Source: Bacteroidota bacterium (GTDB taxonomy: Bacteria; Bacteroidota; Ignavibacteria; Ignavibacteriales; Ignavibacteriaceae). Taken from it: a stretch of DNA of 64,000 bases. The stretch covers positions 1 to 64,000 of the forward strand of contig JAJYDC010000016.1 of NCBI GenBank assembly GCA_021777835.1, given 5' to 3'. This document shows positions 4,330-19,754 of the stretch, piece by piece. Made by a program: the position numbers and the translations under genes. Every line of letters begins with the position of its first letter. Positions within the stretch are counted from its first letter, which is position 1. The notes beneath the pieces are model-generated. The model worked only from the letters and a program-made list of their open reading frames with translations, did not search any database and was not told the origin of the DNA.

Positions 4330-4854
4330 CTATTTCAATTTTGATGCAAAATCGTATACCTCTTTTGCATGCTGATCTATATTCGTAACATTTATTATTT
4401 TTCTAATTACGCCTTTTTTATCAACAATAAACGTTACTCGGTTGTCGTATCCGCCTTTTCCATAGACACCGTATGTTTTTGATACTTTAGTACTCGCATC
4501 CGAAAGTAATGGAAAATTTAAATTATTGTCTTTTATAAACTTCTTAATTTCAGGTTTTGTATCAACACTAATCCCGAGTACCTGAATTTTGCCTTTCTTG
4601 AACTTACCCCAATCATCTCTAATTCCGCATGCTTCTTTTGTGCACCCTGCCGTCCCTGCTTTGGGATAAAAATAAACAATTACAGGCATCTTACCTTTAA
4701 ACGAAGATAACGTATAGGTTTTGCCGTATGAATCTTCTAACTTAAAGTTAGGCGCTTTCATACCCACTTTTAATTCTTTCGGAGCTTTAGCTAAAGAAAA
4801 CGATGAAACGGATACAATCAGAACAAAAACATAAAAAATGATTTTATTTCTCAT
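4330..4854 (-). CDS. Exported peroxiredoxin, Bcp/PrxQ type
   Basis: This 174-aa thioredoxin-fold peroxidase has an N-terminal signal peptide (about 1-24, ending SLAKA), unlike the cytoplasmic Bcp encoded at 40391. The active site is FYPKAGTAGCTKEACGIRD, with peroxidatic Cys and a second Cys five residues on, the PrxQ arrangement that forms an intramolecular disulfide. It should reduce peroxides in the periplasm. The start is fixed by a strong upstream GGAGGG ribosome binding site. It is separated by about 125 bp from purB. Confidence 0.88.
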   Translation of the reverse strand: MRNKIIFYVFVLIVSVSSFSLAKAPKELKVGMKAPNFKLEDSYGKTYTLSSFKGKMPVIVYFYPKAGTAGCTKEACGIRDDWGKFKKGKIQVLGISVDTKPEIKKFIKDNNLNFPLLSDASTKVSKTYGVYGKGGYDNRVTFIVDKKGVIRKIINVTNIDQHAKEVYDFASKLK

Positions 4855-4978
4855 TTGAACCCTCCAATATATTATTGATATTTTTTCTATTGTTAGCTAA
4901 TAAAATATTTAATACTAAAAGTTGTATAAATAATAATTTACAGGCTAACTAGCTTAAATATATAAATATAAGTTTTCC

Positions 4979-6283
4979 TTAATTGTTAGATTCAACACTT
5001 CTTGCAAATATGTAATCAACGTTATCTAGCATTTTACCGTAATCAAAAACCTCTTTAATCTCCTTTTCTGAAAGATATTTCCTTGCTTCGCCAGAATTTA
5101 GCAGCTCACTTTCTAAATTCTTTGAATTATCTGCCCAAACATCCATTGCTGAAGTCTGTACTATTTTGTATGCATCCTCGCGTGACGCACCTTTACTTAC
5201 CAGTTTAAGTAATACAGTTTGGGAAAATACAAGCCCTCTTGTGAGGTTCAGATTCTTAATCATATTTTCAGGATAAACCAATAGGTTCTTTATCAATTTT
5301 GTGGCAAGATCAAGCATATAATCCAAAGCTATGCAGCTATCAGGCACTATAATTCGCTCTACCGACGAATGAGAAATGTCTCTTTCATGCCAAAGCGCTA
5401 CATCTTCAATTGCTGCCGTTGCATTACCTCGAAGTACTCTCGAGAGTCCTGCTATCCTTTCACTCACGATTGGATTTCTCTTATGCGGCATTGCAGATGA
5501 ACCTTTTTGTCCCTTCGAAAAATATTCTTCGGCTTCTAATACTTCGGTTCTTTGTAGATGCCTAATCTCTAATGCAATTTTTTCTAAAGAAGCACCCACG
5601 ATTGCTAATGTTGTTATAAACTCAGCGTGCCTGTCTCTTTGTATTATTTGAGTTGACACAGGGGCAGGCTTTAACCCTAACTTATTACATACATATTCTT
5701 CCACCTTTGGAGATAAATGCTCAAATGTTCCTACTGCTCCTGAAATTTGTCCTACACTAATTGTATCAATTGCATTCTCTAATCTCTTAATATTTCTCCT
5801 GGCTTCTTCAAACCAAAGCGCAAACTTCAATCCCATCGTTGTTGGCTCTGCATGAATACCATGTGAACGCCCTACGCAAAGCGTATTTTTATGCTCTATC
5901 GCTTTTTCTTTTAACGCAGCCTTTAGATCTTTAAGCCTTTTTAATAATTGCTCACCTGCCGCCTTCATTTGGATTGATAACGTTGTATCTAAAATATCTG
6001 ACGATGTCATACCGTAGTGAATATGTCGTGATTCTGGTCCTACATACTCCGCAACGTTTGTTAGAAATGCAATAACATCATGCTTGGTTGTCTCCTCAAT
6101 TTCAAGCACTCTCTTTATTTCAAAATTGGCTTTCTTTTTTATTACCTCAACGTCTGCTGTTGGTATTTCGCCAAGTACACTTCGTGCCTCACAAGCAAGT
6201 ATTTCTATTTTAAGCCAGGTATTATACTTAAATTCATCCTGCCAAATTTTCCCCATATCAGGTAGCGTATATCTGTCAATCAT
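4979..6283 (-). CDS. purB: Adenylosuccinate lyase
   Basis: A 434-aa enzyme of the fumarase/aspartase superfamily. It makes two fumarate-releasing cleavages in purine synthesis, SAICAR to AICAR and adenylosuccinate to AMP. The superfamily signature GSSAMPHKRNP lies around residue 263, its flexible loop serine included. The conserved HYGMTSSDILDT (substrate binding) and GRSHGIHAEPTT (catalytic His region) blocks are also present. The ATG overlaps the end of the upstream HtrA gene by 8 bp, so the two are translationally coupled. purC lies elsewhere in the window (31783). Confidence 0.96.
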   Translation of the reverse strand: MIDRYTLPDMGKIWQDEFKYNTWLKIEILACEARSVLGEIPTADVEVIKKKANFEIKRVLEIEETTKHDVIAFLTNVAEYVGPESRHIHYGMTSSDILDTTLSIQMKAAGEQLLKRLKDLKAALKEKAIEHKNTLCVGRSHGIHAEPTTMGLKFALWFEEARRNIKRLENAIDTISVGQISGAVGTFEHLSPKVEEYVCNKLGLKPAPVSTQIIQRDRHAEFITTLAIVGASLEKIALEIRHLQRTEVLEAEEYFSKGQKGSSAMPHKRNPIVSERIAGLSRVLRGNATAAIEDVALWHERDISHSSVERIIVPDSCIALDYMLDLATKLIKNLLVYPENMIKNLNLTRGLVFSQTVLLKLVSKGASREDAYKIVQTSAMDVWADNSKNLESELLNSGEARKYLSEKEIKEVFDYGKMLDNVDYIFARSVESNN

Positions 6284-7448
6284 TAACTGTTTTCTCCAGA
6301 ATCATTTGTTTTGAAATCTCTTTGTCGTTTCGTAATATCTTTAATGTAATAGTTTGACCGCTTCTAAATTGTTTGAATACGCCTACCAGGGTTTGATCAT
6401 CTATTATTTTGTAATCATTAACTTGAAGTATTATATCTCCCGACTTTATTCCTGCCATATCCGCAGGAGAATTTGGAATAACTTCTGTTACAATTACACC
6501 TCTTGCTGAAGGAAGTTTATAATATTTAGCAATTCCTTCATCAACAGTCTGAATCTTTAAACCAATACTAAAGTTTCGGTCAATTTTGCCATATTTCTTT
6601 AGCTCTGTTATGACCTTTTTAATCCTGTTTATTGGAATAGCAAATCCTAATCCGATATTACCCTGAACTCCGTCAGCAGTATAAATAAGTGTGTTCATTC
6701 CTATAACTTCGCCAAGACTATTGGCAAGCGGTCCGCCGCTGTTACCTCCGTTTATAGCCGCATCGGTTTGAAGCATATTTAAATAATAACGGTTATGCAG
6801 CGGCTCTAAATTCATTCCGGTTGAACTTACAACTCCAACCGTAACAGTCGGTTTGTCATTTACATTAAAAAGTCCAAAAGGATTTCCAAAGGCAATAACC
6901 CATTCTCCTATCATTACACCGTCAGAATTTCCAAGTGTAACATAAGGAAGATTATGTCCCTCAATTTTAAGAAGACATATATCCGTAGCATGGTCTGTTC
7001 CAATAAGCTTTGCTTTATATTCCTTCCCGTTCGTTAACGTTACTGTAATTTCCGAAGCGTTTCCAGCCACATGGTCGTTTGTTACTATATAACCGTCAGG
7101 TGAAATAAGAAATCCTGAACCAAGTTCTTTTACCTTTTGATCATACGTACCTTGATTTCCAAAGAACTGCTGAAAGAACGGATCGTTAAAAAAACTACTG
7201 AAAGGTGAGGCGTATTGCTGTATCTCGGTAACATTTATTCCTACTACCGCTGGGCTAACTTTTTGCACAGTCTCTGTAATTGCAGTCTTTCTTGAGTTGT
7301 CAATACTGTTGCTGCTATTGCTGACCAATGAAGAATTTGGGCTAGCTTCATAATATAATGGATCTTTTGTTTGTGCGTTAAATTCTAATGAACAGGCAAG
7401 TATACTTAATCCGGTAATGAGCAGTCTAAGTTTTATATTGTTAATCAT
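6276..7448 (-). CDS. HtrA/DegP-type periplasmic serine protease, one PDZ domain
   Basis: A 390-aa trypsin-like protease with the HtrA triad: His in TNDHVAG, Asp in ATDICLLK and Ser in NGGNSGGPL. A single PDZ domain follows at about 290-385. The N-terminus is an export signal; it contains ILAC, a weak lipobox, so the mature protein could be a lipoprotein or be cleaved after FNA. The family degrades or refolds misfolded envelope proteins. With one PDZ domain it is DegS/HhoA-like rather than a full DegP. A purine-rich AAGGAAG precedes the ATG. It overlaps purB by 8 bp. Confidence 0.92.
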   Translation of the reverse strand: MINNIKLRLLITGLSILACSLEFNAQTKDPLYYEASPNSSLVSNSSNSIDNSRKTAITETVQKVSPAVVGINVTEIQQYASPFSSFFNDPFFQQFFGNQGTYDQKVKELGSGFLISPDGYIVTNDHVAGNASEITVTLTNGKEYKAKLIGTDHATDICLLKIEGHNLPYVTLGNSDGVMIGEWVIAFGNPFGLFNVNDKPTVTVGVVSSTGMNLEPLHNRYYLNMLQTDAAINGGNSGGPLANSLGEVIGMNTLIYTADGVQGNIGLGFAIPINRIKKVITELKKYGKIDRNFSIGLKIQTVDEGIAKYYKLPSARGVIVTEVIPNSPADMAGIKSGDIILQVNDYKIIDDQTLVGVFKQFRSGQTITLKILRNDKEISKQMILEKTVND

Positions 7449-7464
7449 TTTTCTTCCTTTTATA

Positions 7465-8094
7465 TCAATCGTTTTCAGAAATTGCTTTATTTTGATTGAT
7501 TAGACTTTGTAAAGGTTCAAAATGTTTTATCATTATTAAAATAAGTATTGCGGAAGCAAAAATATCGAATGTTGAAAGTGTCTCCGGTCTTGGAAATGTA
7601 AATCTGAAGAAAAAACCTGAAAAAGAATAAATAAATATCATTGAAAAAACTATAGCAAATACATTTGAAATTATTATCTCACGCTTAAACAAATAAAACA
7701 GTGCCCAAATCACCACCCATAAAAATACTAACAAAGGAGAAAGCAAAAGCAAACCTCCCGTAGCAGTAGACAAACCTCTGCCTCCTTTGAATGAAATCCA
7801 TGGACTATAGCAATGACCAAGAACGGCAAATAATAACGCTATCGAAGGGTATACAAAATTTAACGGTAGTATTAAGATCATCAAATAAACACTTAACAAT
7901 CCTTTTAATGCATCTATCAAAAAAATGAATAAACCGATAGACGTAGAGTTAGTAATTTCAAAAGCATTCATTGCTCCGACATTACCAGTACCCGCTCTTG
8001 TAATATCAATACTTTTGGCTCTCTTCAACAAAATATAAGCTGTAGGAAAAGATCCTAATAAATATCCCACTGTTGCCGATAAAATGTATAGCAT
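7465..8094 (-). CDS. plsY: Acyl-phosphate:glycerol-3-phosphate acyltransferase
   Basis: A 209-aa polytopic inner-membrane enzyme that transfers an acyl group from acyl-phosphate to glycerol-3-phosphate, the first step of phospholipid synthesis in bacteria with PlsX/PlsY. The three family motifs are visible: GSFPTAYI near the N-terminus, the glycine-rich RAGTGNVGAMN at about 37, and the FKGGRGLSTATG phosphate loop around residue 103. About five to seven transmembrane helices are predicted. It lies 16 bp upstream of the HtrA gene on the same strand and probably heads that operon. Confidence 0.95.
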   Translation of the reverse strand: MLYILSATVGYLLGSFPTAYILLKRAKSIDITRAGTGNVGAMNAFEITNSTSIGLFIFLIDALKGLLSVYLMILILPLNFVYPSIALLFAVLGHCYSPWISFKGGRGLSTATGGLLLLSPLLVFLWVVIWALFYLFKREIIISNVFAIVFSMIFIYSFSGFFFRFTFPRPETLSTFDIFASAILILIMIKHFEPLQSLINQNKAISEND

Positions 8095-8374
8095 AATTAA
8101 AATTAAATAATTTTTATACCCTAATTTACTAAAAAATTACGTGTGTAATAATGAAGCGTGACCTTCCGTATGTGCCTGCTAATTAAATGTTGGCATCTGA
8201 TTATTTCATGAAATTACAATCAAATAATTTATAACAGTCCAATTATTGAATTATTTTCTTAAATTCATTATAATTGTACTAGATATATTTTAGTTCTAAA
8301 CAAAATGCGTACTATTGAACTTTAACTATCTTGCAAAAGGGAAATCATATCAAACATTTGTACTCTAACTGATT

Positions 8375-8451
8375 TGAAATCGTTCTGAAAACGTCTTGAA
8401 AACGTTATGAAAACGTCTTGAATTCGTTGTGAATACGTCTTGAACACGTTA
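8375..8451. repeat. 11-bp direct repeat array (7 copies), helically phased
   Basis: Seven exact-length 11-bp units with consensus TGAAnnCGTyn follow one another without spacers. Copies 2, 4 and 6 end CGTCT, whereas copies 1, 3, 5 and 7 have CGTT plus one variable base, giving a 22-bp super-period. Every unit carries TGA, and 11 is not a multiple of 3, so all three frames are closed and the array is not coding. It sits in a 436-bp intergenic space (8095-8530), 80 bp before the gene at 8531. One helical turn per unit would place all copies on one DNA face, as expected of a cooperative protein-binding array. The rest of the gap shows nothing recognisable. Confidence 0.9.
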
Positions 8452-8530
8452 TGACAGGCATGTTCCAAGCACATTACCCTATGATCACCCCTTTTAAGTT
8501 GCTCTCTAATAAACTAAAAGGAGTAATATC

Positions 8531-9244
8531 ATGGCAACCCTACACAATGCAGTCTTTGGATCCGTTAACGGTAAAATAGGTAATGCAGTAGCTCGCAGTG
8601 TCCATGGCAAAGACTTTATATCCCACAGACCAAAAAAATACAAGAAAACAAAAAGCCCAAAAGCAATAATTGCCCGAAGTAAGTTCGCTACAAACGTCAA
8701 GTTTGCTAAACATATTAATTCGATTCCGGAGTTATCCCACGTATGGAAAAATGCTGATCTCAATGGATTTGATTCTTATCATCGATTGCTTAGCTGCAAC
8801 TATAAATATGTTACCGAAACTAGCCCTACAATCGATAATATTATATTACCACCGGCTGAAACCTATTACAATTATAATTTAGATATTACTGGAAAGGATC
8901 TCAATATTGGTTTCGAACCGGATGTATTCATTCAGAATGAGAAATATCTTACTTCCTTATCAATCTTTGCTGTTCTCCTCTTTAATGAGCCAATTAGAAA
9001 AAGAAAGAATAGCTTTATAATTAAGAATGCGATCTTAAAAGATATTGATCTAAATGATAATGGCCTCAATAACGTAAATATCCCATTTGAAAAATCAATA
9101 TCCCAGTTAATTACTCAGTATAAAAATATGTTAGTTTATCTAGCCTTAATCTTCAACTCGGAAAATCCCAGCCAGATCTCTTGGCTCCCAATGGAGACAA
9201 AATCCATTAACCTAGAAGCCATAGCCAGCAGCGTAATTGAATAA
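8531..9244 (+). CDS. DUF6266-like protein of unknown function
   Basis: A 237-aa protein. Its N-terminal pattern (FGSVNGKIGNAVARSVHGKDFI, then a Lys-rich stretch and IARSKFATNVKFAKHI) follows the layout of Bacteroidetes DUF6266 proteins (G-x-SGKVGNVVG-x-x-x-KG...R-x-KF). This is from memory, not a database search. There is no signal peptide. The first 60 residues are strongly basic and the remainder is probably beta-rich. A perfect AAAAGGAG lies 8 bp before the ATG. The gene is solitary, with the 11-bp repeat array upstream and a hairpin downstream. Role unknown; the short, basic N-terminus could bind nucleic acid. Confidence 0.65.
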   Translation: MATLHNAVFGSVNGKIGNAVARSVHGKDFISHRPKKYKKTKSPKAIIARSKFATNVKFAKHINSIPELSHVWKNADLNGFDSYHRLLSCNYKYVTETSPTIDNIILPPAETYYNYNLDITGKDLNIGFEPDVFIQNEKYLTSLSIFAVLLFNEPIRKRKNSFIIKNAILKDIDLNDNGLNNVNIPFEKSISQLITQYKNMLVYLALIFNSENPSQISWLPMETKSINLEAIASSVIE

Positions 9245-9321
9245 TCATAAAGACTACCATTAAGGACACAAGTCTCTTTAAATCAGTGAAATATTTGTTT
9301 TTAGTACTGAAGTTATTGAAT

Positions 9322-9359
9322 CATAGAAGTATAAGAATAAGCTAGATTATTCTTCTATG
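9322..9359. terminator. Hairpin between convergent genes
   Basis: CATAGAAG...AGAATAA and TTATTCTTCTATG pair over 13 bp with a 6-nt bulge and a 6-nt loop, about 80 bp after the gene ending at 9244 and 80 bp before the end of the convergent gene at 9439. It is AT-rich and lacks an uninterrupted T-run, so termination is plausible rather than shown. Confidence 0.35.
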
Positions 9360-9438
9360 TAATTAAATACTTTTATAATTAAAATTGCTATTAGTAACTA
9401 TGCTTATTAATTAATATAAAGAGATAAATATATTTAGA

Positions 9439-10629
9439 TTAGGCAACTTTTCCTCTGCTCAGTACTTCCTTTTGAGCATAGTGTGAAATGATTTCCCCAT
9501 AACTATTGAAAAGTTTGTCAAAAACTTTTTTCCATGACTGCGTCTGAGCATATTGAAATGCCTGAACTGCCATCTGATCCATTAAAGTCGAATTTCCTAG
9601 GAGCATTTCAATCTTATTGGAGATATCAGAAGCATTCCTCGGCTCAGCTATTAATCCTGTAATCCCATCATTAATGATTCCGTAAGCACCGCCTTCTCTA
9701 ACACAAATTGGCGGTAAACCCGATGCCATTGCTTCTACAACAACATTTCCAAATGTTTCAGTAGTCGATGGAAATACAAAAATATCTGAGGAAGCATAAG
9801 TAGTCGCTAATTCTTTACTCGTCTGATAACCTAAAAATATAGCCTTAGGTATTGCTTTTTCTAAGTCTTCTCGTATTGGTCCGTCTCCTGCTATTACGAA
9901 TGCGACATCATTTCTTTTTGCTGTTAGTATCTTGTATACTTCAACGAAAGTCTGTAAATCTTTTTCCCAGACAAGTCGACCAGCAAAAAGCAAAGCTTTC
10001 TTACCGGTTATATTCAGTTTAATCTTCCAATCTGGGGATTTATACCTAGGATTAAAAATCTCGGTGTCTACTCCATGAGGGAGGAATTCAGTCTTATTCA
10101 AACTGTGGCTGCGAAGCTCATTTAATATAGGTAATGAAGGGACATAAACTGTTTCACACTTATTATAGATACTGCGAAAATAGTTCCAGCTAAATGATTC
10201 TAGTGATTTCACATAGTAATATTTAGCGTAACTAGCGAAGTGAGTATGATATGTTGCAACTACCGGAATCCTATGCTTTAATCCAAATTTCAATGCTGCA
10301 TAGCCTAAAGGACATGGGCTATTTATATGAATAATATCCGGACTAAACTCTAGTAACTTATTCTCAAATATTTTTTGACCAAAATAAGGAAGTCTATATT
10401 CCTTATAGAATGGAACTGTAACAGAGGGAACCTTAAACATCAAAGTCGGTTGTTCTTCTTTATCAGGAATAATAGGAGAGACGAATATATTCTCAATATT
10501 CCGATTATTCAATTCTTCAATCAGTTTATACAATACTCGTGTTACTCCATCAATACCGGGACGCATTGAGCCTGCGAAATAAGCTACTTTATATTTAGAT
10601 CCAATAGTATCATGAAAAAACAGTGACAT
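9439..10629 (-). CDS. Glycosyltransferase family 4 (GT-B, mannosyltransferase-like)
   Basis: A 396-aa GT-B glycosyltransferase. The N-terminal acceptor domain has the glycine-rich FAGSMRPGIDGVTRVLYKL, typical of alpha-mannosyltransferases acting on lipids. The C-terminal GT4 nucleotide-sugar domain shows LFAGRLVWEKDL and the E-x7-E motif region EAMASGLPPICVREGGAYGII. It is expected to transfer a sugar from a nucleotide donor to a lipid or glycan at the cytoplasmic membrane. It stands at the edge of the polysaccharide locus and is followed at 10755 by a metallophosphoesterase on the same strand. The exact donor and acceptor cannot be read from sequence. Confidence 0.88.
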   Translation of the reverse strand: MSLFFHDTIGSKYKVAYFAGSMRPGIDGVTRVLYKLIEELNNRNIENIFVSPIIPDKEEQPTLMFKVPSVTVPFYKEYRLPYFGQKIFENKLLEFSPDIIHINSPCPLGYAALKFGLKHRIPVVATYHTHFASYAKYYYVKSLESFSWNYFRSIYNKCETVYVPSLPILNELRSHSLNKTEFLPHGVDTEIFNPRYKSPDWKIKLNITGKKALLFAGRLVWEKDLQTFVEVYKILTAKRNDVAFVIAGDGPIREDLEKAIPKAIFLGYQTSKELATTYASSDIFVFPSTTETFGNVVVEAMASGLPPICVREGGAYGIINDGITGLIAEPRNASDISNKIEMLLGNSTLMDQMAVQAFQYAQTQSWKKVFDKLFNSYGEIISHYAQKEVLSRGKVA

Positions 10630-10754
10630 AATATTCCTTAAAATTCGTTTCTATATTAGTATTTCTGTCTGCTATGATATGCTTTACAGTTACATTATTA
10701 GTAATGATTATGATCAATGCCCTAATGAATTAGAATTTCTAATAAGAAGAATTA

Positions 10755-11711
10755 TTAGTTAGTAACTTCGGCTAATACTATACTCTTTTCAAGATCATTT
10801 TTTCTACCGGAAATTGAGCTGCTTATATCATTATATTCCTCAGGCATTCGCAAGTTGCGCGTCTCAACATCAATTATAGATGGCTCTATATCAATAAAAT
10901 TTAGAAAGAATTTACTTTGAAATTGACTCTTTATGCTTCCACCTGCATTCAAAAACCTTAACCCGCCACGATGATATTCTTTCATTTCATGATAATGCCC
11001 ATGCAGAACAAGATCTATATTGAACTGGTTGAATAAGTTAATCAATCTCTTCTTCTTTCTCAGTTTCATTGTCTGCTTTTCAATATTCTGCCAAAATCCG
11101 CCGAACGAACTATTATTCTTTCCTCTAATTTTCCCGAAGTGGTGATGTATCAAAACTATCTTTGTATGAACCTCATCTTTGAAGTTCTGCAATATTTCGG
11201 AAGTCTTAGCTAATTGCTCTACACTCACTGACCCATTAGATGCAAAGATATTTTTAGTTTTCGAATACTCGGCTATAGAATTGACACCTAATATTAAAAC
11301 ACCTTCAATAATTTTCGCGAAAGGGAAAATTGAATCCTCTGAAAAATAAACACAATTATCAAAAGCCTCAGCAAAGTAAGAATAGAATTCTCTTACTTTA
11401 TCATTAAAATTAACTGAGCTGCATTTTTCCGGAAAAGAAAAGATGTCCTCTGCGGTCTGTACGCCTCCAAAGATGTCGTGATTACCTATCACTAATGATA
11501 ATTTTCGTGAGTCAAGAATTCCTAAGTCTTCAAATAGATATCTTAAGATTAGAAAATCATTCTTCTCTGCATTGTCAGTTAAATCACCCGTTATAACTAT
11601 ATGATCTGCACTATTCTTTAGCGCATATTCTAGTAAATACTTAATTTTGCTATAATTTGAGTTCTTAAAGAAAGTAGTAAAATGAAGATCCGAAATGTGA
11701 ATGATTCTCAT
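10755..11711 (-). CDS. Calcineurin-like metallophosphoesterase
   Basis: A 318-aa protein with all metal-binding blocks of the calcineurin-like superfamily in order: ISDLHF (D-x-H), ITGDLTD (GD), IGNHDIFG (GNHD), IHHHFG (H) and LHGHYHE (GH-x-H). It should carry a dinuclear metal centre and hydrolyse phosphomono- or diesters. The substrate is unknown; cAMP, UDP-diacylglucosamine-like and Ser/Thr phosphate substrates are all found in the superfamily. It has no signal peptide, so it is cytoplasmic. It is co-oriented with the glycosyltransferase at 9439, 125 bp away. Confidence 0.88.
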   Translation of the reverse strand: MRIIHISDLHFTTFFKNSNYSKIKYLLEYALKNSADHIVITGDLTDNAEKNDFLILRYLFEDLGILDSRKLSLVIGNHDIFGGVQTAEDIFSFPEKCSSVNFNDKVREFYSYFAEAFDNCVYFSEDSIFPFAKIIEGVLILGVNSIAEYSKTKNIFASNGSVSVEQLAKTSEILQNFKDEVHTKIVLIHHHFGKIRGKNNSSFGGFWQNIEKQTMKLRKKKRLINLFNQFNIDLVLHGHYHEMKEYHRGGLRFLNAGGSIKSQFQSKFFLNFIDIEPSIIDVETRNLRMPEEYNDISSSISGRKNDLEKSIVLAEVTN

Positions 11712-11914: not shown

Positions 11915-12886
11915 ATGTTTGAATATTTTCCATTAAATACAATAAAGCTGTCAGATACTGAATGGGATAATTTTGTAGATTCATCTGATAACGGTACTAT
12001 GTTTCATAAACGACTATTTCTTTCTTATCACCCTAAAGGAAGATTCAATGACGCTTCCTTAGTTTTTAAGAAGAATAACCAATTGAGTGCATTATTCACA
12101 GCAGCAGTTGTTGAGCGAGAAGGGAAGAAAGTTCTCGTATCTCATTCGGGAGCTTCGTATGGGGGATTTATCTATAGGAGTGATCTAAATTTCCGGGAAG
12201 CTTTTGATTTAGTTGAATCTATAATTGATTATGCTGGTAAATTAAAATGCGATAGGATACAATTAACTCCTCCGCCTATTATTTATCAGTCGAAATATTC
12301 AAACTATATTGACTTTGCACTTGTGAAAAATGAGTTTAATTATTTGAAGCGTGATGTATCAAGTGTAGTCCAGCTTGATGTGCAAAAGGAAGACCTTTTT
12401 TCAACATATCGTGCTGAAGCACGTACGGCAGCTAAGAAAGCTATCAAGCAGGGAATTGAAATAGTTGAATGCGATCGTTTTGAAGAATATTATGAAATCT
12501 TAAAGACCAATTTAAAGATGCGCCATAACGTTAATCCTACTCACTCACTAGATGAAATTCTTAAGCTAAAAAAACTCTTTCCAGCAAAGATAAGATTATG
12601 GGGAGCTTTTAAGGGTGATAAGTTAATTGCTGGCGTATGTAATTTCTCGGCTAACCCGAAAGTTGTTTTAGCTTTTTATATTAGCCATGATGAGAAATAC
12701 CAGGAATACCGCGCAGTGAATTTGCTTTTTTATGAAATAATGAATCGATATAGAGATGAAGGCTTTAAGTTTTTAGATTTTGGAATCTTTACGGTTAATA
12801 TGGAGCCTAATTGGGGACTCGCAAGATTTAAGGAAAATTTCGGAGCACGTGGAATTTTTAGAGATACATTTTACAAAGATATTTAA
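11915..12886 (+). CDS. FemAB/GNAT-fold acyl or aminoacyl transferase
   Basis: A 323-aa protein with the two-lobed GNAT/FemAB look. The C-terminal half contains RAEARTAAKKAIKQG, LKMRHNVNPTH, and a GNAT-like core around LWGAFKGDKLIAGVCNF...YEIMNRYRDEGFKFLDFGIF. Proteins of this type sit in surface-polysaccharide loci and transfer an acyl or amino-acid group to a sugar or peptide. It heads a three-gene run: its stop overlaps the ATG of the next glycosyltransferase by one base (TAATG). No signal peptide. The substrate cannot be deduced. Confidence 0.75.
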   Translation: MFEYFPLNTIKLSDTEWDNFVDSSDNGTMFHKRLFLSYHPKGRFNDASLVFKKNNQLSALFTAAVVEREGKKVLVSHSGASYGGFIYRSDLNFREAFDLVESIIDYAGKLKCDRIQLTPPPIIYQSKYSNYIDFALVKNEFNYLKRDVSSVVQLDVQKEDLFSTYRAEARTAAKKAIKQGIEIVECDRFEEYYEILKTNLKMRHNVNPTHSLDEILKLKKLFPAKIRLWGAFKGDKLIAGVCNFSANPKVVLAFYISHDEKYQEYRAVNLLFYEIMNRYRDEGFKFLDFGIFTVNMEPNWGLARFKENFGARGIFRDTFYKDI

Positions 12887-13962
12887 TGCTAAAAATTTTA
12901 CATCTTGCACCACAGAATTACGCGGGAGTTCCGTATGATTATTTCAAAATGCATTTATCAAGCGGAGATCAATCCCGTTTAATTACTTTCCATAGAAATC
13001 AACTTGATTTTCCTGAAGATGTTTGTCTTAATTTCCCTTTGCCCAATTTCCCTTTTGCTAAACTTTGGCGCAAAAAAAAAGTCAATGATCGAGAAAAGGA
13101 AATAAGCTTCCAAACACCTGAATTCAAACCAAAGAATATATTTGAGAAATATTATTTTGATCTCAACGATCATTTAAAAAGGGAAAAAATTTCTGCAGTA
13201 ATTAAAAAATATAATCTTGAGGAATATCAAATTATCCATTACGACGCTGGACTAGATTTCTTTAGGAATGCCTCACTTGCAAGAAGGTGGAAGCGTGAAG
13301 GAAAGAAAATCGTTTGTTGTTATTACGGAAGCGATTTACGTATCAGGGGAGTTATTAAAGAGCTAGATGAAATCTCAGATCTTAATATTACGTCTGAATA
13401 TGATCATCTCAGTATGAAAAATAATTTGAGTTATATATTTTATCCTTATGACCCCACTGAATTGCCTGATAAAAAGAATAATGAAAATAGAAATGTTACA
13501 ATCGTACATTCACCAACAAATAGAAAATATAAAGGAACTGATTTAATTATTTCAGTTATAGAACGAATCAAAAAGGAAAGAGAAATTTCTTTTATTCTTA
13601 TAGAAAACACTGCAAGAAGGGAATTACTTGAAGTTAAAAGCAGATGTGATATTTCAATTGATCAGGTTGGAGGGACTATGGGTGGCACAGGATATGGTAA
13701 AGCAGGACTGGAAACATTGGCAATGGGGATCCCTACTATAACGAATATGAATGATGATTATGCTGAATGGTTGCCTGAGAATCCTTTTATAATTGCAAAT
13801 AATGCAGATGAATTATACAAAAAATTGAATGTTTTAATAGATGATAAAAATTATCGAGAAAATTTAGGAGAAGCTGGAAAATCCTGGGTAAGAAAATATC
13901 ATGGTTACGAAAATGTAAATGAAAAGCTTAGGGAATTGTACAAACTTAGAAATATAATTTGA
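12886..13962 (+). CDS. Glycosyltransferase (GT-B fold)
   Basis: A 358-aa protein. The N-terminus reads LKILHLAPQNYAGVPYDYFK. The C-terminal domain has the donor-site features HSPTNRKYKGTDLII and GKAGLETLAMGIPTITNMNDDYAEWL, where the glutamate binds the nucleotide-sugar in GT4-like enzymes. This places it among GT-B glycosyltransferases, more divergent than the genes at 9439 and 15366. It overlaps the transferase before it by one base and the flippase after it by one base (TGATG), so the three are almost certainly co-translated. Its likely role is assembly of the exported repeat unit. Confidence 0.8.
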   Translation: MLKILHLAPQNYAGVPYDYFKMHLSSGDQSRLITFHRNQLDFPEDVCLNFPLPNFPFAKLWRKKKVNDREKEISFQTPEFKPKNIFEKYYFDLNDHLKREKISAVIKKYNLEEYQIIHYDAGLDFFRNASLARRWKREGKKIVCCYYGSDLRIRGVIKELDEISDLNITSEYDHLSMKNNLSYIFYPYDPTELPDKKNNENRNVTIVHSPTNRKYKGTDLIISVIERIKKEREISFILIENTARRELLEVKSRCDISIDQVGGTMGGTGYGKAGLETLAMGIPTITNMNDDYAEWLPENPFIIANNADELYKKLNVLIDDKNYRENLGEAGKSWVRKYHGYENVNEKLRELYKLRNII

Positions 13963-15386
13963 TGCAACAGATAAGAAGTCTGTCTAAATCAACGATTTGG
14001 TATAGCCTTGGAAATTTTTTTGTAAGGTCTATTAGCTTTTTGTTACTACCCCTCTATTCTAACTTAATTTCAACAAAAGAATTTGGCGATTATTCTCTTC
14101 TAATGTCAATTTATACTATAGCTTCTGTGTTATATCAATTTGGCTTGCCTGCTGCTTTTAGCAAATTCTATTTAGAGGCAGAATCAGATCAGAAAAGAGC
14201 AAAAATATTTTCTACAGTGATTAATTCTACTCTTCTATTCGGGATTTTAATTTCATCAATCATTATAATTTTTTCGGGCAAGATTTCATTAATTATCTTA
14301 AAATCGAGCGATTCCTTTGGCTTAGTCAGTCTAACCTTTATAACTCTACTAGTAGATACTGTTGCCTATTTTAGTCTGCATTTATTGAAAACTCAGGAGA
14401 ATTCTAAAAAGGTTGTTCTTTTGTCTTCGGTTGCAGCTATCTCAAACTTGATCCTGAATGTAATTTTTGTATATCTATTGAAACAAGGTATTGAAGGAAT
14501 TTTTTATGCGCAAATTATTTCTTCAATAGTATTAGTAATATCAATGATTCCTAATATCAAATCTGAATACTCATTAAGCATTGAATCAAAAATTCTTAAA
14601 ATAATGATAAGGTTTTCAATCCCACTTATTATATCAGGACTATTCTCTTCGGCAATAGATGTCAGTGATCGATTTCTTATAAATAATTATTTAGGCAAGA
14701 ATGTAGTAGGTATATATAGCTTTTCATACAGGATTGCCATGATCATGAACGTTTTCGTGATTTCATATAGAACCGCTTGGGTACCTTATGCTCTAAATGT
14801 TTATTCCACTGGAAAGTATCAAGAAATATTTGGCAAAACTCTTCTTAAACTGATTTTCGCAGGTGGATTCATAATATTATTAGTGACATTTTTTACCGGC
14901 TATCTATTTGACTTACGTATACTTGGGATAACATTTTTGAATCATCAGTATCTTCCGGGCTTGTTGATACTGCCATTCATACTTCTCGGTTATTTTTTCA
15001 ACGGATTAGCATCTTTCTATTCTATTTATCCGCTGGTCTCAAATAAAACTTATCACTTTCCAATTGCGGATGGGATAGGGTTTGCGCTGAATCTAATATT
15101 GAATTTAATCCTAATTCCTCATTATGGGATAATAGGTGCTGCAATAGCAACTACTATCGCATTTGCTTCGTCGGCGTTTTATTTATATTTAATTTCTGTA
15201 GGCCAACTTAAATTCAATTATAATATTAAACAATTATTAGCGTTGGTTTCAATGTTGACTCTATTCTTACTGGGGGGTATTTTATTTAATAATATTTATT
15301 TTAACATAATACTTAGCAGTCTTTTCTTTATTATAGCAGTTAAATTGACAGGAACTAGACTTAATTCAATTTTCATTTTTCGCTAA
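13962..15386 (+). CDS. Polysaccharide flippase (Wzx-like, MOP superfamily)
   Basis: A 474-aa membrane protein with about twelve to fourteen hydrophobic helices and the MOP-family start IRSLSKSTIWYSLGNFFVRSI. It also shows the internal signature VSDRFLINNYLGKNVVGIYSFSYRIA, typical of O-antigen/teichoic-acid translocases. It probably flips undecaprenyl-linked oligosaccharides to the periplasmic face. I start it at the ATG at 13962, which overlaps the preceding stop as TGATG, rather than at a TTG one codon upstream. Its 3' end overlaps the convergent glycosyltransferase at 15366 by 21 bp. Confidence 0.9.
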   Translation: MQQIRSLSKSTIWYSLGNFFVRSISFLLLPLYSNLISTKEFGDYSLLMSIYTIASVLYQFGLPAAFSKFYLEAESDQKRAKIFSTVINSTLLFGILISSIIIIFSGKISLIILKSSDSFGLVSLTFITLLVDTVAYFSLHLLKTQENSKKVVLLSSVAAISNLILNVIFVYLLKQGIEGIFYAQIISSIVLVISMIPNIKSEYSLSIESKILKIMIRFSIPLIISGLFSSAIDVSDRFLINNYLGKNVVGIYSFSYRIAMIMNVFVISYRTAWVPYALNVYSTGKYQEIFGKTLLKLIFAGGFIILLVTFFTGYLFDLRILGITFLNHQYLPGLLILPFILLGYFFNGLASFYSIYPLVSNKTYHFPIADGIGFALNLILNLILIPHYGIIGAAIATTIAFASSAFYLYLISVGQLKFNYNIKQLLALVSMLTLFLLGGILFNNIYFNIILSSLFFIIAVKLTGTRLNSIFIFR

Positions 15387-16508
15387 CGAATTAACTAGTT
15401 TGATTAATTTTAATGATTCCTCTTCCCAATTCTTTCCATTTTCAATCTGTTTTCGTGCGTTAATAGAATGAGAATAAAGCAAGCTCTTATCAAGAATATA
15501 TTTTTCAACACAGCTTATAATAATATTCTGATTCGATGGATCAACGAGGAATCCTGGAATGTTTTCTCCAAATTCTTTCCGGATAGGTTTTATATCGGTG
15601 AATATAATTGGTTTTCCGCAAGCCATATATTCGAAAATTTTTATTGGGAGTGAGTTTTTATAAATAAAATTTCTGATTCTTAGGTCAAAACAAATATCTA
15701 CATTTTGAAGATGTTTTGAAATATCATCATAATTTGACCATCCAACTTTAGTTATAGATATCGTTTTATTGCTTTTCAGCAATTCATTAAAGTAGTTCTC
15801 CTCATCAATACGTTCAAATTTCCCAACAATTTTTAATGTAATATTTAAGGATTGATATTTCTCCTTAATTTTCTTTGTAACTTCAAGTAAAGTTAATATC
15901 CCTCTTTGAAAGTTAATCAGACCGGCATAGCAAAGTGTCAAATCGGTCCCATTAAATTGCGGCTTTGAATAATTAAAAAAACGCAATATTGGATAATAGC
16001 CTATCACTGTTTTATTAGTAACCGGTGCTATAAAATCGTATCTCCTTTTTTTTGTCAGTTCCCCTAGGATCAGATTATCACATAAGTTAGCAGCAACTAA
16101 ATTAAATATGAAGTATAAGAAATAATAAAAATATTTTTTAACACCTATAATTTTTGCAACTAAGTTTTCCGGGTACCACTCAGTTATATCCAAAACAATT
16201 TTACTTTTCGGTTGCGAAATCTTAAACTTGTACGCAGAAAAGACAGGTAATGGTTCGCAACAAATAATAATGGAAGGATTTGAAATATGAAGTAAATTGT
16301 AAAAACTTGAAATTTTTTTCTTCTTAGCAAAAAGAGAACCATTGAAACCAGTTATAGAGATACCATTTTTAATTTCATTAATTTCTTGGGTGGAGCAGAT
16401 TATATCAACACTATAACCTGATTCAATTAAACTCATACCGAATTTGAAGAAAATCCTTTCGTCAAGCGGGAGATGTCCTGAGGTTACAATCGCAATTTTT
16501 GTTTTCAT
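15366..16508 (-). CDS. Glycosyltransferase family 4
   Basis: A 380-aa GT4-type enzyme. MKTKIAIVTSGHLPLDERIF at the N-terminus, a Rossmann-like acceptor domain, and a donor domain with LCYAGLINFQRGI and IKIFEYMACGKPIIFTDIKPI are visible. The ATG at 16508 is preferred because the open frame upstream to 16589 encodes a hydrophobic, family-atypical extension. It converges with the flippase gene and overlaps its end by 21 bp, so transcription of the two may interfere. Likely a hexosyltransferase of the local surface polysaccharide. Confidence 0.85.
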   Translation of the reverse strand: MKTKIAIVTSGHLPLDERIFFKFGMSLIESGYSVDIICSTQEINEIKNGISITGFNGSLFAKKKKISSFYNLLHISNPSIIICCEPLPVFSAYKFKISQPKSKIVLDITEWYPENLVAKIIGVKKYFYYFLYFIFNLVAANLCDNLILGELTKKRRYDFIAPVTNKTVIGYYPILRFFNYSKPQFNGTDLTLCYAGLINFQRGILTLLEVTKKIKEKYQSLNITLKIVGKFERIDEENYFNELLKSNKTISITKVGWSNYDDISKHLQNVDICFDLRIRNFIYKNSLPIKIFEYMACGKPIIFTDIKPIRKEFGENIPGFLVDPSNQNIIISCVEKYILDKSLLYSHSINARKQIENGKNWEEESLKLIKLVNSLAKNEN

Positions 16509-16664
16509 TGAATTAGAGTTTAGTAAACGCTCTATCAAAATAAAAAGGACTTCGGTATAAACAAAATAAACTTCAAAATATTTTATCACTATTATAAAAT
16601 ATTCGAAAAAGGCTCAGTCAAATAACAATAATAATATTGTATTAAAAGTGCTCAATTATCGCTG

Positions 16665-17807
16665 CTATAAAGAAGTCCCTACTTTTATTCTCATATTCAG
16701 AAAAGCTGAAATTGAATTAAATTTGCCTTTACTATCTCTTGAGAATATAATTGAAGGGCCAATGGCAAATGTACTAGTCGCCCAACTTTCTCCAATTTTT
16801 TGAACCATAAGATTTACAAAGTACTCTGGTTGCCTTACATCGCTCGCCGGCATTGCATCAATGCTAATATCAAAAGTGCTCCCTACTAATGATAACTCTC
16901 TTCCCGTAAATCCAATATGGATTTCGCTTAAATATTTAGCAACATAGAATTTAGCTCTAGTTGAACCTAGAACACTTATTGGGTATCTGAATTCCCATCC
17001 ATAATAATTGCCTTGTAAAATCTTCGACTTGAAATTGAGCGAATCAACGTTGTTGCGATTAAAATAATTTAATTCCGAATCACTAGGTTTGGTTAGAATA
17101 TGTTGATAATTTAATTCAAAGAAATTGCCTAGCGGTATCGTATACCCAACCTGATAACCATTGGTAATATATATATTATTATAGCTATAGCTATTTCTAC
17201 TGTCTGTTAATGCATCTATGTGGTTTATAATTCCTATATAAAATCCAATTAAGTGAATATTTGCTTCAACAAAGTTAGTCTCTAGCGGGAATGAATAAGG
17301 AGTCCCTACACCAATTGATAGTCCTAAATTTCCTTTTATCGGAATGCCAAATCTTTCGCCGCCAAATAGCTGGAGGAATGGATTTATATAGTTTAGAGTA
17401 GAAGTAATTTGGTAAAGAGTAGGAGGCGTAAGAATTTTTTTAGTAGGAAATTTACTTATAACTCTCGTAAACACACTTCCAAAATTAATTTGTTCTTCAA
17501 GATTTATCTTGAAAGGGTATGAAATGATATTGGCTCTTGTCTCTGGTTTGAAAGATAAAAAGGGATACAAAACACCTTTAATCAATACAGTTTGATTGCT
17601 TTGATCTCGAAGATCAACAATTATTTCAGCTTTTGGATCCTGAGGGTCAATATATACTTCTTTTTGAATTGTTATAAACAGACTATCGTTCAACGGTTCC
17701 ATTTGATAATAAGAAATTTTCTCTATAGGTTCATTCTGAGCAAATAACATATTAAAAGAAGTCGTCAAAAATAAAAGTAACAACAAAGATTCAAATTTAA
17801 TTTTCAT
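16665..17807 (-). CDS. Unknown outer-membrane beta-barrel-like protein
   Basis: A 380-aa exported protein with a signal peptide (about 1-23, ending LFAQ). After a short N-terminal globular region it shows many alternating hydrophobic/polar segments rich in Tyr, Phe and Gly (for example NLGLSIGVGTPYSF, GYQVGYTIPLGNFFELNYQH, GNYYGWEFRYPI). It ends in an aromatic/hydrophobic strand SISAFLNMRIKVG. This is what an outer-membrane beta-barrel looks like, but no family is recognised. It lies 23 bp after the gene ending at 17831 and is the last of three co-directional genes that probably act together at the envelope. Confidence 0.6.
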   Translation of the reverse strand: MKIKFESLLLLLFLTTSFNMLFAQNEPIEKISYYQMEPLNDSLFITIQKEVYIDPQDPKAEIIVDLRDQSNQTVLIKGVLYPFLSFKPETRANIISYPFKINLEEQINFGSVFTRVISKFPTKKILTPPTLYQITSTLNYINPFLQLFGGERFGIPIKGNLGLSIGVGTPYSFPLETNFVEANIHLIGFYIGIINHIDALTDSRNSYSYNNIYITNGYQVGYTIPLGNFFELNYQHILTKPSDSELNYFNRNNVDSLNFKSKILQGNYYGWEFRYPISVLGSTRAKFYVAKYLSEIHIGFTGRELSLVGSTFDISIDAMPASDVRQPEYFVNLMVQKIGESWATSTFAIGPSIIFSRDSKGKFNSISAFLNMRIKVGTSL

Positions 17808-17830
17808 GGGAAATTGTCTCTTGTTCTGAA

Positions 17831-18760
17831 TTACCTTGAAAAATCTGTGAAATAAATAAAATCTCCAGCAACTACATGAGTACTAGTTTTTTCATCAACA
17901 GCAGTAAAGAAAAAATTTACCTTATATCGACCATTTACATCTTTCATTTCACCATAATGATCAACCCAATTGTTAAATTCCGATATTGTTGAAGCAATCT
18001 TCAAAGACACATTATATACCAAGCCACCTTCTCGATTTTTATAGGGACCAGTAACGTAAATTGGACCTGAATATGTCACTTTTAATTGTTCTGGTCTCTG
18101 ATATTTTATTATAACATTAGATACAGTTGTCTTTTGAAGATCTTGTACAAAAATTATAGAGGCATCCATTTTAGTCGACGCTCTAACAATCCGTATCTCC
18201 GGTGGATTCATCGGATAAACATTTATTATTTGCTCTTGACTTCCAAACTTTAAGATAACTTCGATTTGGTTTCCAAGATTAAATCTTCTTTCTTGACCTG
18301 GAGGAATAACTATAATTGGAGATAACTTATTTCCGATATTATAAATATAAGCCGGAATATTCCCATTATTCTTTGCAATATTCCAAGTGTTTTGAAGGAA
18401 AGTTTGAGAAATAGAAATAGGTGATTGCAAAACAGTTTGTTCCTGTAATGGATGTGGAACTTGACGGAATGAAGGATTTGAATAAGGAATTTGATTATTT
18501 AATAAAGTTAACTTTTTTTTAAGTTTTTCGTTTTCAAAGATTATATTTAAGCTTAAGTTTGATTTTGCTTTTGACCCTTGCGCGTATAATGAATCGATTA
18601 AGAGAATCAATGAGTCTCTAACACTTTTCGAAACTACTTTATCTTTTAAGACCACCTCTTTTAGATTAATCCCAGCTCCTTTTAAGGAAAGAATAGTAAT
18701 TACAAAAATGTAGAGTACTTGATAGATTATAAATTTACTGTCTCTATTTTTCTTATACAT
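17831..18760 (-). CDS. Unknown membrane-anchored or exported protein
   Basis: A 309-aa protein with one N-terminal hydrophobic segment (about residues 10-30), then a predicted coiled helix (about 35-90) and a mostly beta C-terminal half. The C-terminal half contains a proline-rich strand pattern (SPIIVIPPGQERRFNLGNQIEVILKF; VYPMNPPEIRIV) resembling an immunoglobulin-like domain. No family is recognised. Topology suggests a periplasmic protein held by its N-terminal helix. It sits 10 bp after the polytopic protein at 18771 and 23 bp before the barrel-like protein, so it could bridge inner and outer membranes. Confidence 0.55.
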   Translation of the reverse strand: MYKKNRDSKFIIYQVLYIFVITILSLKGAGINLKEVVLKDKVVSKSVRDSLILLIDSLYAQGSKAKSNLSLNIIFENEKLKKKLTLLNNQIPYSNPSFRQVPHPLQEQTVLQSPISISQTFLQNTWNIAKNNGNIPAYIYNIGNKLSPIIVIPPGQERRFNLGNQIEVILKFGSQEQIINVYPMNPPEIRIVRASTKMDASIIFVQDLQKTTVSNVIIKYQRPEQLKVTYSGPIYVTGPYKNREGGLVYNVSLKIASTISEFNNWVDHYGEMKDVNGRYKVNFFFTAVDEKTSTHVVAGDFIYFTDFSR

Positions 18761-18770
18761 TATTTTAAAG

Positions 18771-19754
18771 TCATTTCTTTACAATCGATTCTAAATATTT
18801 CAGTCCAGTTAATGTATTCTCATTGTTTAATGAGTTAGCAGCTAGAGATATTGTTCTTGTTAAAGCCTCTAATTCAAATACTTTTTCTTTACCCATTATA
18901 GGTAAGTTGTTTAATCGTTCAGTAAGATTCTGAATAGATTTAAAATTATTATTTATTGAAAAGCTCAACTCGGCTATTTCAGCTAAGATATTTTTATAGT
19001 TTTGTAATTCTACTATTTGATTGTTAGATAATTGAGATATAGACAAGCTGCGTATACTGCTCGATATATCCTCAATAAAATCATTTTTATTTTCAATTTG
19101 GATTCGTGAAAAATAATTTTCTTTAATATCACGAATTTGGCTAACCAAGTTTTGAAACTCAACACTTAATTGATCCAAAACAGGTTCAAAAAGTTTACCA
19201 ATCGCTAGGATTATCAACGCTTTTATTTCAAAGGGAACTGAAAGCCCAAGGAACACTTCCTCTCCCAATCTGATGCTAATTAATAGAATTGCGGCACCTA
19301 GCAAAGGAAGTGCGGTTGATATACTATCTATAACACTTGTGTATGAATCAACCACTCTATCGATTGTTTCGGATACTGGATTCCTAGCAATTTCCTCCTT
19401 CAATTTTCTATAAGTCAAATATGATAACAGAATAAATAGGCCATACGTTACTGGTGGCAACCACCAAAATCTAAATGATTCAAAGTTTTGTGAAGCTGGC
19501 TGCCATCCTTGGAACAATGATTTCGCTAAACTAACTGAAATATTACCTAGGATTGGCACATGTGAAATATCAAAAAAAAATGAAATAAATAAAGCAATTA
19601 GTGAAATTAGAGCAGGCTTAGTTATTGTAGAAAATTTTATTTTATCCAGAGCAGATTTTGTTGTTTTGTTGATTTCTTCTTCAAGATCCTTATTCTTAAA
19701 TAGTTCAGAAGTATTTGTCGCCTTAAGAACAATATTTTTCATAAAAACTGACAT
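18771..19754 (-). CDS. Unknown polytopic inner-membrane protein with helical C-terminal domain
   Basis: A 327-aa protein with no signal peptide. Three hydrophobic regions stand out (about residues 45-65, 92-115 and 145-190), the last long enough for two helices, with ALPLLGAAILLISIRLGEEVF. A roughly 130-residue charged helical, coiled-coil-like tail follows. The topology, and the small-residue ALPLLG segment before a long amphipathic helix, recall MotA/TolQ/ExbB channel subunits, but key family residues cannot be confirmed by eye. It heads the three-gene operon 19754-16665. An ATG four codons further in is an alternative start. Confidence 0.55.
   Translation of the reverse strand: MSVFMKNIVLKATNTSELFKNKDLEEEINKTTKSALDKIKFSTITKPALISLIALFISFFFDISHVPILGNISVSLAKSLFQGWQPASQNFESFRFWWLPPVTYGLFILLSYLTYRKLKEEIARNPVSETIDRVVDSYTSVIDSISTALPLLGAAILLISIRLGEEVFLGLSVPFEIKALIILAIGKLFEPVLDQLSVEFQNLVSQIRDIKENYFSRIQIENKNDFIEDISSSIRSLSISQLSNNQIVELQNYKNILAEIAELSFSINNNFKSIQNLTERLNNLPIMGKEKVFELEALTRTISLAANSLNNENTLTGLKYLESIVKK

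Follow-up and report, generated by a model that had tools for sequence, protein, structure and literature searches.

The window analyzed here is a 64,000-nucleotide stretch of one contig from a member of the Ignavibacteriaceae, and it carries three adjacent genes on the minus strand, transcribed in the order A-B-C, with gaps of 10 bp between A and B and 23 bp between B and C (Table 1). These ORF coordinates agree with the gap sizes and operon order given in an earlier sequence-only reading of the same DNA, which had described the trio as an unrecognized envelope system. Homologs of like length and in like order occur in dozens of genomes, so that A, B, and C are real genes and not chance ORFs; most of these homologs share 43 to 70% identity with the window's proteins, and A is present in a single copy in the window's genome.

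Table 1. Features of the three-gene locus and its flanks (positions in the window)
Feature	Position	Strand	Description
Gene A, inner-membrane protein (predicted), 327 aa	18771..19754	-	Four TM helices, long C-terminal helical tail
A codons 143-192, TM3-TM4 hairpin	19179..19328	-	All A-family invariant residues except Met1
Gene B, 309 aa	17831..18760	-	One N-terminal TM helix, linker, putative beta-type periplasmic part
B codons 7-28, TM helix	18677..18742	-	Invariant D7, K9, F10, Y13, Q14, L16, Y17, K27, G28
Gene C, predicted outer-membrane protein, 380 aa	16665..17807	-	Signal peptide, small N-terminal domain, beta-barrel
C codons 141-380, predicted outer-membrane beta-barrel	16668..17387	-	AF2 model, fold alignment, strand alternation
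Trio flanks	11915-15386 and 15366-16589		Glycosyltransferases, FemAB-like protein, polysaccharide flippase

No convincing match for A, B, or C was obtained by single-sequence searches of Pfam, PHROGs, NCBIfam, or PADLOC. The same was true of a Pfam scan with every aligned homolog of the three proteins and of an NCBIfam scan with the aligned homologs of A and C; matches of single homologs (DUF948, FapA, FpoJ, and others) were scattered and weak. PDB sequences searched with the A, B, and C profiles gave coiled-coil noise or no match. The trio is thus of a kind absent so far from the family databases searched, and the description of it as unrecognized is borne out. A defense system was rejected (no PADLOC match), as was a phage origin (PHROG matches weak and mainly in coiled parts).

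Family-averaged hydropathy placed four TM segments in A (residues 43 to 61, 96 to 114, 141 to 159, and 167 to 185). An AF2 model built with 56 sequences (pLDDT 78.6, pTM 0.58) contained helices at residues 42 to 60, 99 to 124, and 128 to 163, one long helix at 165 to 236, and further tail helices after it. By sequence and model, A is accordingly predicted to be a four-TM inner-membrane protein, the polytopic protein with a long helical tail that had been proposed. Conservation in A was concentrated in TM3 and TM4, its most conserved segments (mean information, 3.6 bits versus at most 2.8 elsewhere): across 56 homologs with identities down to 24%, every invariant residue besides Met1 fell within residues 143 to 192 (D143, P150, L151, G153-A155, L157, L158, S160, G164, F168, P174-E176, K178, L183, K187, F189, and V192). 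Counted from the TM3-TM4 turn, Glu176 comes about 12 residues later; the conservation moments of individual TM helices were unconvincing. Protein B is predicted from its sequence to be single pass, with hydropathy averaged over the family placing its only TM helix at residues 8 to 26, in keeping with the single N-terminal helix described earlier. Its TM region carried 3.6 bits of information versus 2.1 to 2.6 in the rest of the protein; invariant residues, those in Table 1 among others, clustered at this helix, with Asp7 at its edge.

The sole hydropathy segment of C resembles a signal peptide. The AF2 model of C (pLDDT 80.9) consisted of this signal peptide, a small domain (residues 33 to 102), a low-confidence linker, and a C-terminal region of about 13 strands, whose polar/hydrophobic alternation scored 3.00 versus 1.70 +/- 0.33 in shuffles (p<0.0005). 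The best VIA matches of the model were FadL and OmpG (Z 10.5; identity, 8 to 10%), a resemblance in predicted fold that is that of a generic barrel. Directly after the predicted signal peptide, Gln24 is nearly invariant, consistent with the Gln predicted there by the Bacteroidetes Q-rule (PMC5837995). The prediction for C, made with fair confidence, is therefore a signal-peptide protein that forms a barrel in the outer membrane, and the barrel prediction of the sequence-only reading holds on model, fold match, and strand alternation alike.

Among 94 shared same-order relatives, matches to A were obtained in 29, to B likewise in 29, and to C in 30; in a wider set of such relatives, B was found in 31 of 97 genomes. 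The mismatches in presence among the three genes involved contig ends (G021 and G046), a diverged copy (G004), and a fragment of C (G039), nearly all of them being attributable to contig ends or to copies too diverged for a single-sequence query. The A-B-C order on one strand was constant among the order-level relatives with the trio, and C was located elsewhere in three genomes (G034, G064, and G066). A scan of 84,980 prokaryote species for A, defined by two sequence patterns and therefore blind to very distant relatives, found 81 relatives, for which 80 loci were kept; their titles named nearly exclusively Ignavibacteria, Ignavibacteriae, Bacteroidetes, or Chlorobi, with one UBP2. The full trio, always as A-B-C, was present at 60 of the 80 loci, and many of the remaining loci stop at a contig end. 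A profile of B searched against 395 genomes across the phylum matched only within the window's own class. Pairwise distances among A, B, and C over 43 loci were correlated at r = 0.89 to 0.93, which is an upper bound on their co-evolution because shared ancestry is still contained in the distances. That the three genes might usually be separate in related genomes had been raised as grounds against a common system; they are instead intact and ordered at most loci, and the proposed co-inheritance was seen as joint presence, in fixed order, in the same 30 or so of the 94 genomes. The trio makes up a trans-envelope system of three genes that is genuine, conserved, and as yet unnamed.

The topology had been likened to MotA/ExbB-type motors with a periplasmic partner and outer-membrane protein, or to GldL/GldM. 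This comparison remains plausible in that ExbB/TolQ came first in the structural search, whereas homology by profile was absent for ExbB/ExbD and borderline for GldL/GldM. Like the trio, ExbBD and TolQR have adjacent genes, and they have what is predicted for the trio: a polytopic inner-membrane protein whose long TM helices reach into the cytoplasm, a single-TM partner with a periplasmic domain, and an outer-membrane target. Compared with ExbB/TolQ, A has one more TM helix and lacks a large cytoplasmic domain separating TM2 from TM3. In the Tol system, the proton path of TolQ has E173 at its periplasmic mouth, and D23 is the acidic residue used in TolR (PMC12583513); A shows no evident equivalent of the TolQ Thr ring (T145/T178), and Asp7 of B lies at the helix edge, in contrast to the Asp inside the helix of the ExbD/TolR type. 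In a Foldseek search of A against the PDB, ExbB/TolQ made up the first six matches and most of the top 50, with E values of 0.017 and weaker and probabilities of up to 0.97. VIA-align of A residues 95 to 236 gave Z 8.4 for ExbB, 8.4 for TolQ, and 8.2 for ZorA, yet designed proteins, RND pumps, CorA, and others scored equally or higher, so that the match of A to ExbB, TolQ, and ZorA reflects a common arrangement at most.

Membership of A or B in the MotA/ExbB or ExbD families was rejected by Pfam, hhalign, and shuffle tests. A did not match PF01618, a model that picks four other genes in the window's genome, and PF01618 was not among the 25 most-matched families listed for 56 A homologs. With hhalign, A versus ExbB was not significant (P 0.43 over the whole length, 0.19 for the TM part). 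Custom profile alignments, in which the comparison alignments of ExbB/TolQ, ExbD, and GldL/GldM were made from same-phylum sequences and significance was taken from shuffled-column nulls, revealed no homology between A and ExbB (p 0.72) or between B and the ExbD TM helix (p 0.75). A by-eye likeness of the “PLLGAA” helix of A to ExbB TM2 was likewise lost against shuffles (p 0.72).

GldL/GldM is a two-gene inner-membrane motor, as is proposed for A/B, and it belongs to the same phylum: GldL has a helical cytoplasmic tail and an essential TM glutamate (E49) of the motor (PMC8986121), and GldM has one N-terminal TM helix and a beta-rich periplasmic arm. GldL has two TM helices versus four in A, B is shorter than GldM (309 versus at least about 480 aa in the sequences recovered here), and, unlike for GldL/GldM, no GldK or GldN was recognized beside the trio. 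Neither TIGR03513 (GldL) nor PF12081 (GldM N-terminal) matched any protein in the window's genome, A and B included, and B was without any Pfam match. Gapped profile alignment of A TM3-TM4 with GldL TM1-TM2 was borderline (p 0.027), and the TM helices of B and GldM aligned best at zero shift and without a gap (p 0.06); each was one of four tests, which makes these values leads only, and Glu176 was not opposite E49 in the A/GldL alignment. By hhalign, A/GldL gave P 0.055 outside the expected regions, whereas the B/GldM value, P 0.0088, came from an unrelated stretch of 15 residues. GldL was absent from the Foldseek and VIA fold lists for A, which proves nothing. A third comparison is ZorA, a ring protein with a long cytoplasmic tail, as A is proposed to be; PADLOC models of ZorA and ZorB did not match the trio, and the trio differs by its predicted dedicated outer-membrane partner, C, whereas Zorya is not known to have such a partner.

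GldLM itself has been reported to be without obvious sequence homology to MotAB (PMC9389320), so missing homology does not exclude a motor role for A and B. We infer such an activity and, with slightly less than even confidence, read the trio as one trans-envelope machine in which an ion-driven motor of A and B acts on barrel C. Pointing to a motor are conservation placed where a motor would need it (TM3-TM4 of A and the TM region of B), the co-inheritance of the three genes, the Foldseek ranking of ExbB/TolQ, the position of Glu176, and the borderline GldL/GldM scores. Against it, standard profile methods gave no link between either protein, A or B, and a motor family, and the fold match of the A model to ExbB/TolQ is weak and tied in Z with unrelated helical bundles. 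Several copies of A would make a ring whose TM3-TM4 hairpins, with Glu176, enclose the TM helices of two paired B subunits; protons passing through the A/B channel would make B move against A, in the manner of the 5:2 motors (MotAB, ExbBD/TolQR, GldLM, and ZorAB); and the periplasmic part of B, as axle and force arm, would pass the motion to C. A and B would, if this is right, work like 5:2 motors, while membership in a known motor family is unsupported.

Also counted in favor of the trans-envelope machine are the neighbors of the trio, solitary copies of C in polysaccharide clusters, and the flanks of the window's trio. In deeper lineages, LysM genes lie near the trio at 16 of the 80 loci and a small CGGG-type lipoprotein gene at 8; at L132 (5414 to 12416) and like loci, LysM proteins and a small lipoprotein (84 to 88 aa) flank the trio. 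LysM peptidoglycan-binding proteins may, in some lineages, work alongside the transmission from B to C. The main rival to the motor is a static envelope scaffold or channel that takes no energy input, in which A anchors B, B tethers C, and LysM ties the assembly to peptidoglycan. A tether of this kind would fit the conserved order and the barrel equally well, and likewise the LysM and lipoprotein partners, and motor homology was never significant; an anchor would not obviously need a four-TM protein with its invariants in one hairpin, however, nor the strict conservation of Glu176, Lys178, and Lys187 in TM4. We consider the static scaffold unlikely.

As its likeliest output, on weaker grounds than the motor itself, the proposed motor would act at the outer membrane in handling surface polysaccharide. 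In the window, the genes on the flanks of the trio code for glycosyltransferases, a FemAB-like protein, and a flippase (Polysacc_synt); most trios in this bacterial family adjoin amylase, thioredoxin, and PorV-like genes instead of polysaccharide genes, which makes this output uncertain. Paralogs of C without A or B were observed in several genomes (11 loci, L063 to L073, read by eye). Seven of these (L067 to L073) lie near genes for a Wzc-like kinase, SLBB protein, flippase, or nucleotide-sugar functions, several of them pairing a short SLBB protein with a Wzc-like kinase, and this preponderance of polysaccharide-export clusters hints at a polysaccharide role. By inspection only, L064 to L066 lie near squalene/phytoene-synthase-like genes and L063 near a molybdenum-hydroxylase-like cluster.

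A short periplasmic OPX protein paired with an outer-membrane barrel is a described export system, EpsY/EpsX (PMC9601211), and solitary C genes recall such a translocon in that they code for a predicted barrel and adjoin genes for a short periplasmic SLBB protein and for a co-polymerase of the Wzc-like type. On that precedent, C could be the porin of a short-OPX/beta-barrel export module that A and B regulate or gate without any motor. EpsX-type barrels have 18 strands (PMC9601211), whereas the C model has about 13 and C is without a sequence-family match; EpsY/EpsX is not described as having partners like A and B, and many trios lie outside polysaccharide clusters. The export module is in our judgment rather improbable.

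Matches to SprA, the T9SS translocon, were present in 93 of the 94 relatives. GldL was above the cut-off in none of the Ignavibacteria sampled and in 28 other genomes of the phylum; the order thus combines a near-universal SprA with no recognizable GldL above the cut-off. From this combination arises the idea of the trio as a lineage-specific replacement for the T9SS/gliding motor GldLM, with which the borderline A/GldL and B/GldM resemblances would also fit. The trio is, in contrast, patchy, occurring in only about a third of the SprA-bearing relatives, which argues against its being the missing T9SS motor, and its neighborhood contains nothing recognizable as GldK or GldN; we regard the replacement as the least probable of these alternatives, and a role as general T9SS motor was rejected on the same distribution.

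The proton-driven motors of the inner membrane known so far are few, and the question of how they exert force on the outer membrane is open. The ion-driven reading of A, B, and C would add a further proton motor, largely confined to Ignavibacteria and encoded in one operon with its own barrel; motor, arm, and target would make up a minimal machine of three proteins, which might power or control surface polysaccharide export; in this fuller form we hold it to be doubtful. An operon with a motor candidate, an arm, and an outer-membrane target would be a minimal study system, and the trio would give a function to three conserved unnamed families in a class with SprA and no recognizable GldL.

A diverged A'-B'-C' set was also found at three loci (L155, positions 4538 to 11038; L156; and L157). 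In L155 and L156 it is preceded by a gene for a protein of about 699 aa with a vWA-like region and OmpA domains, a homolog of which (compared with that of L155) occupies the equivalent position in the copy of genome G012. The main set and the A'-B'-C' set occur together in two genomes, G012 and G068.
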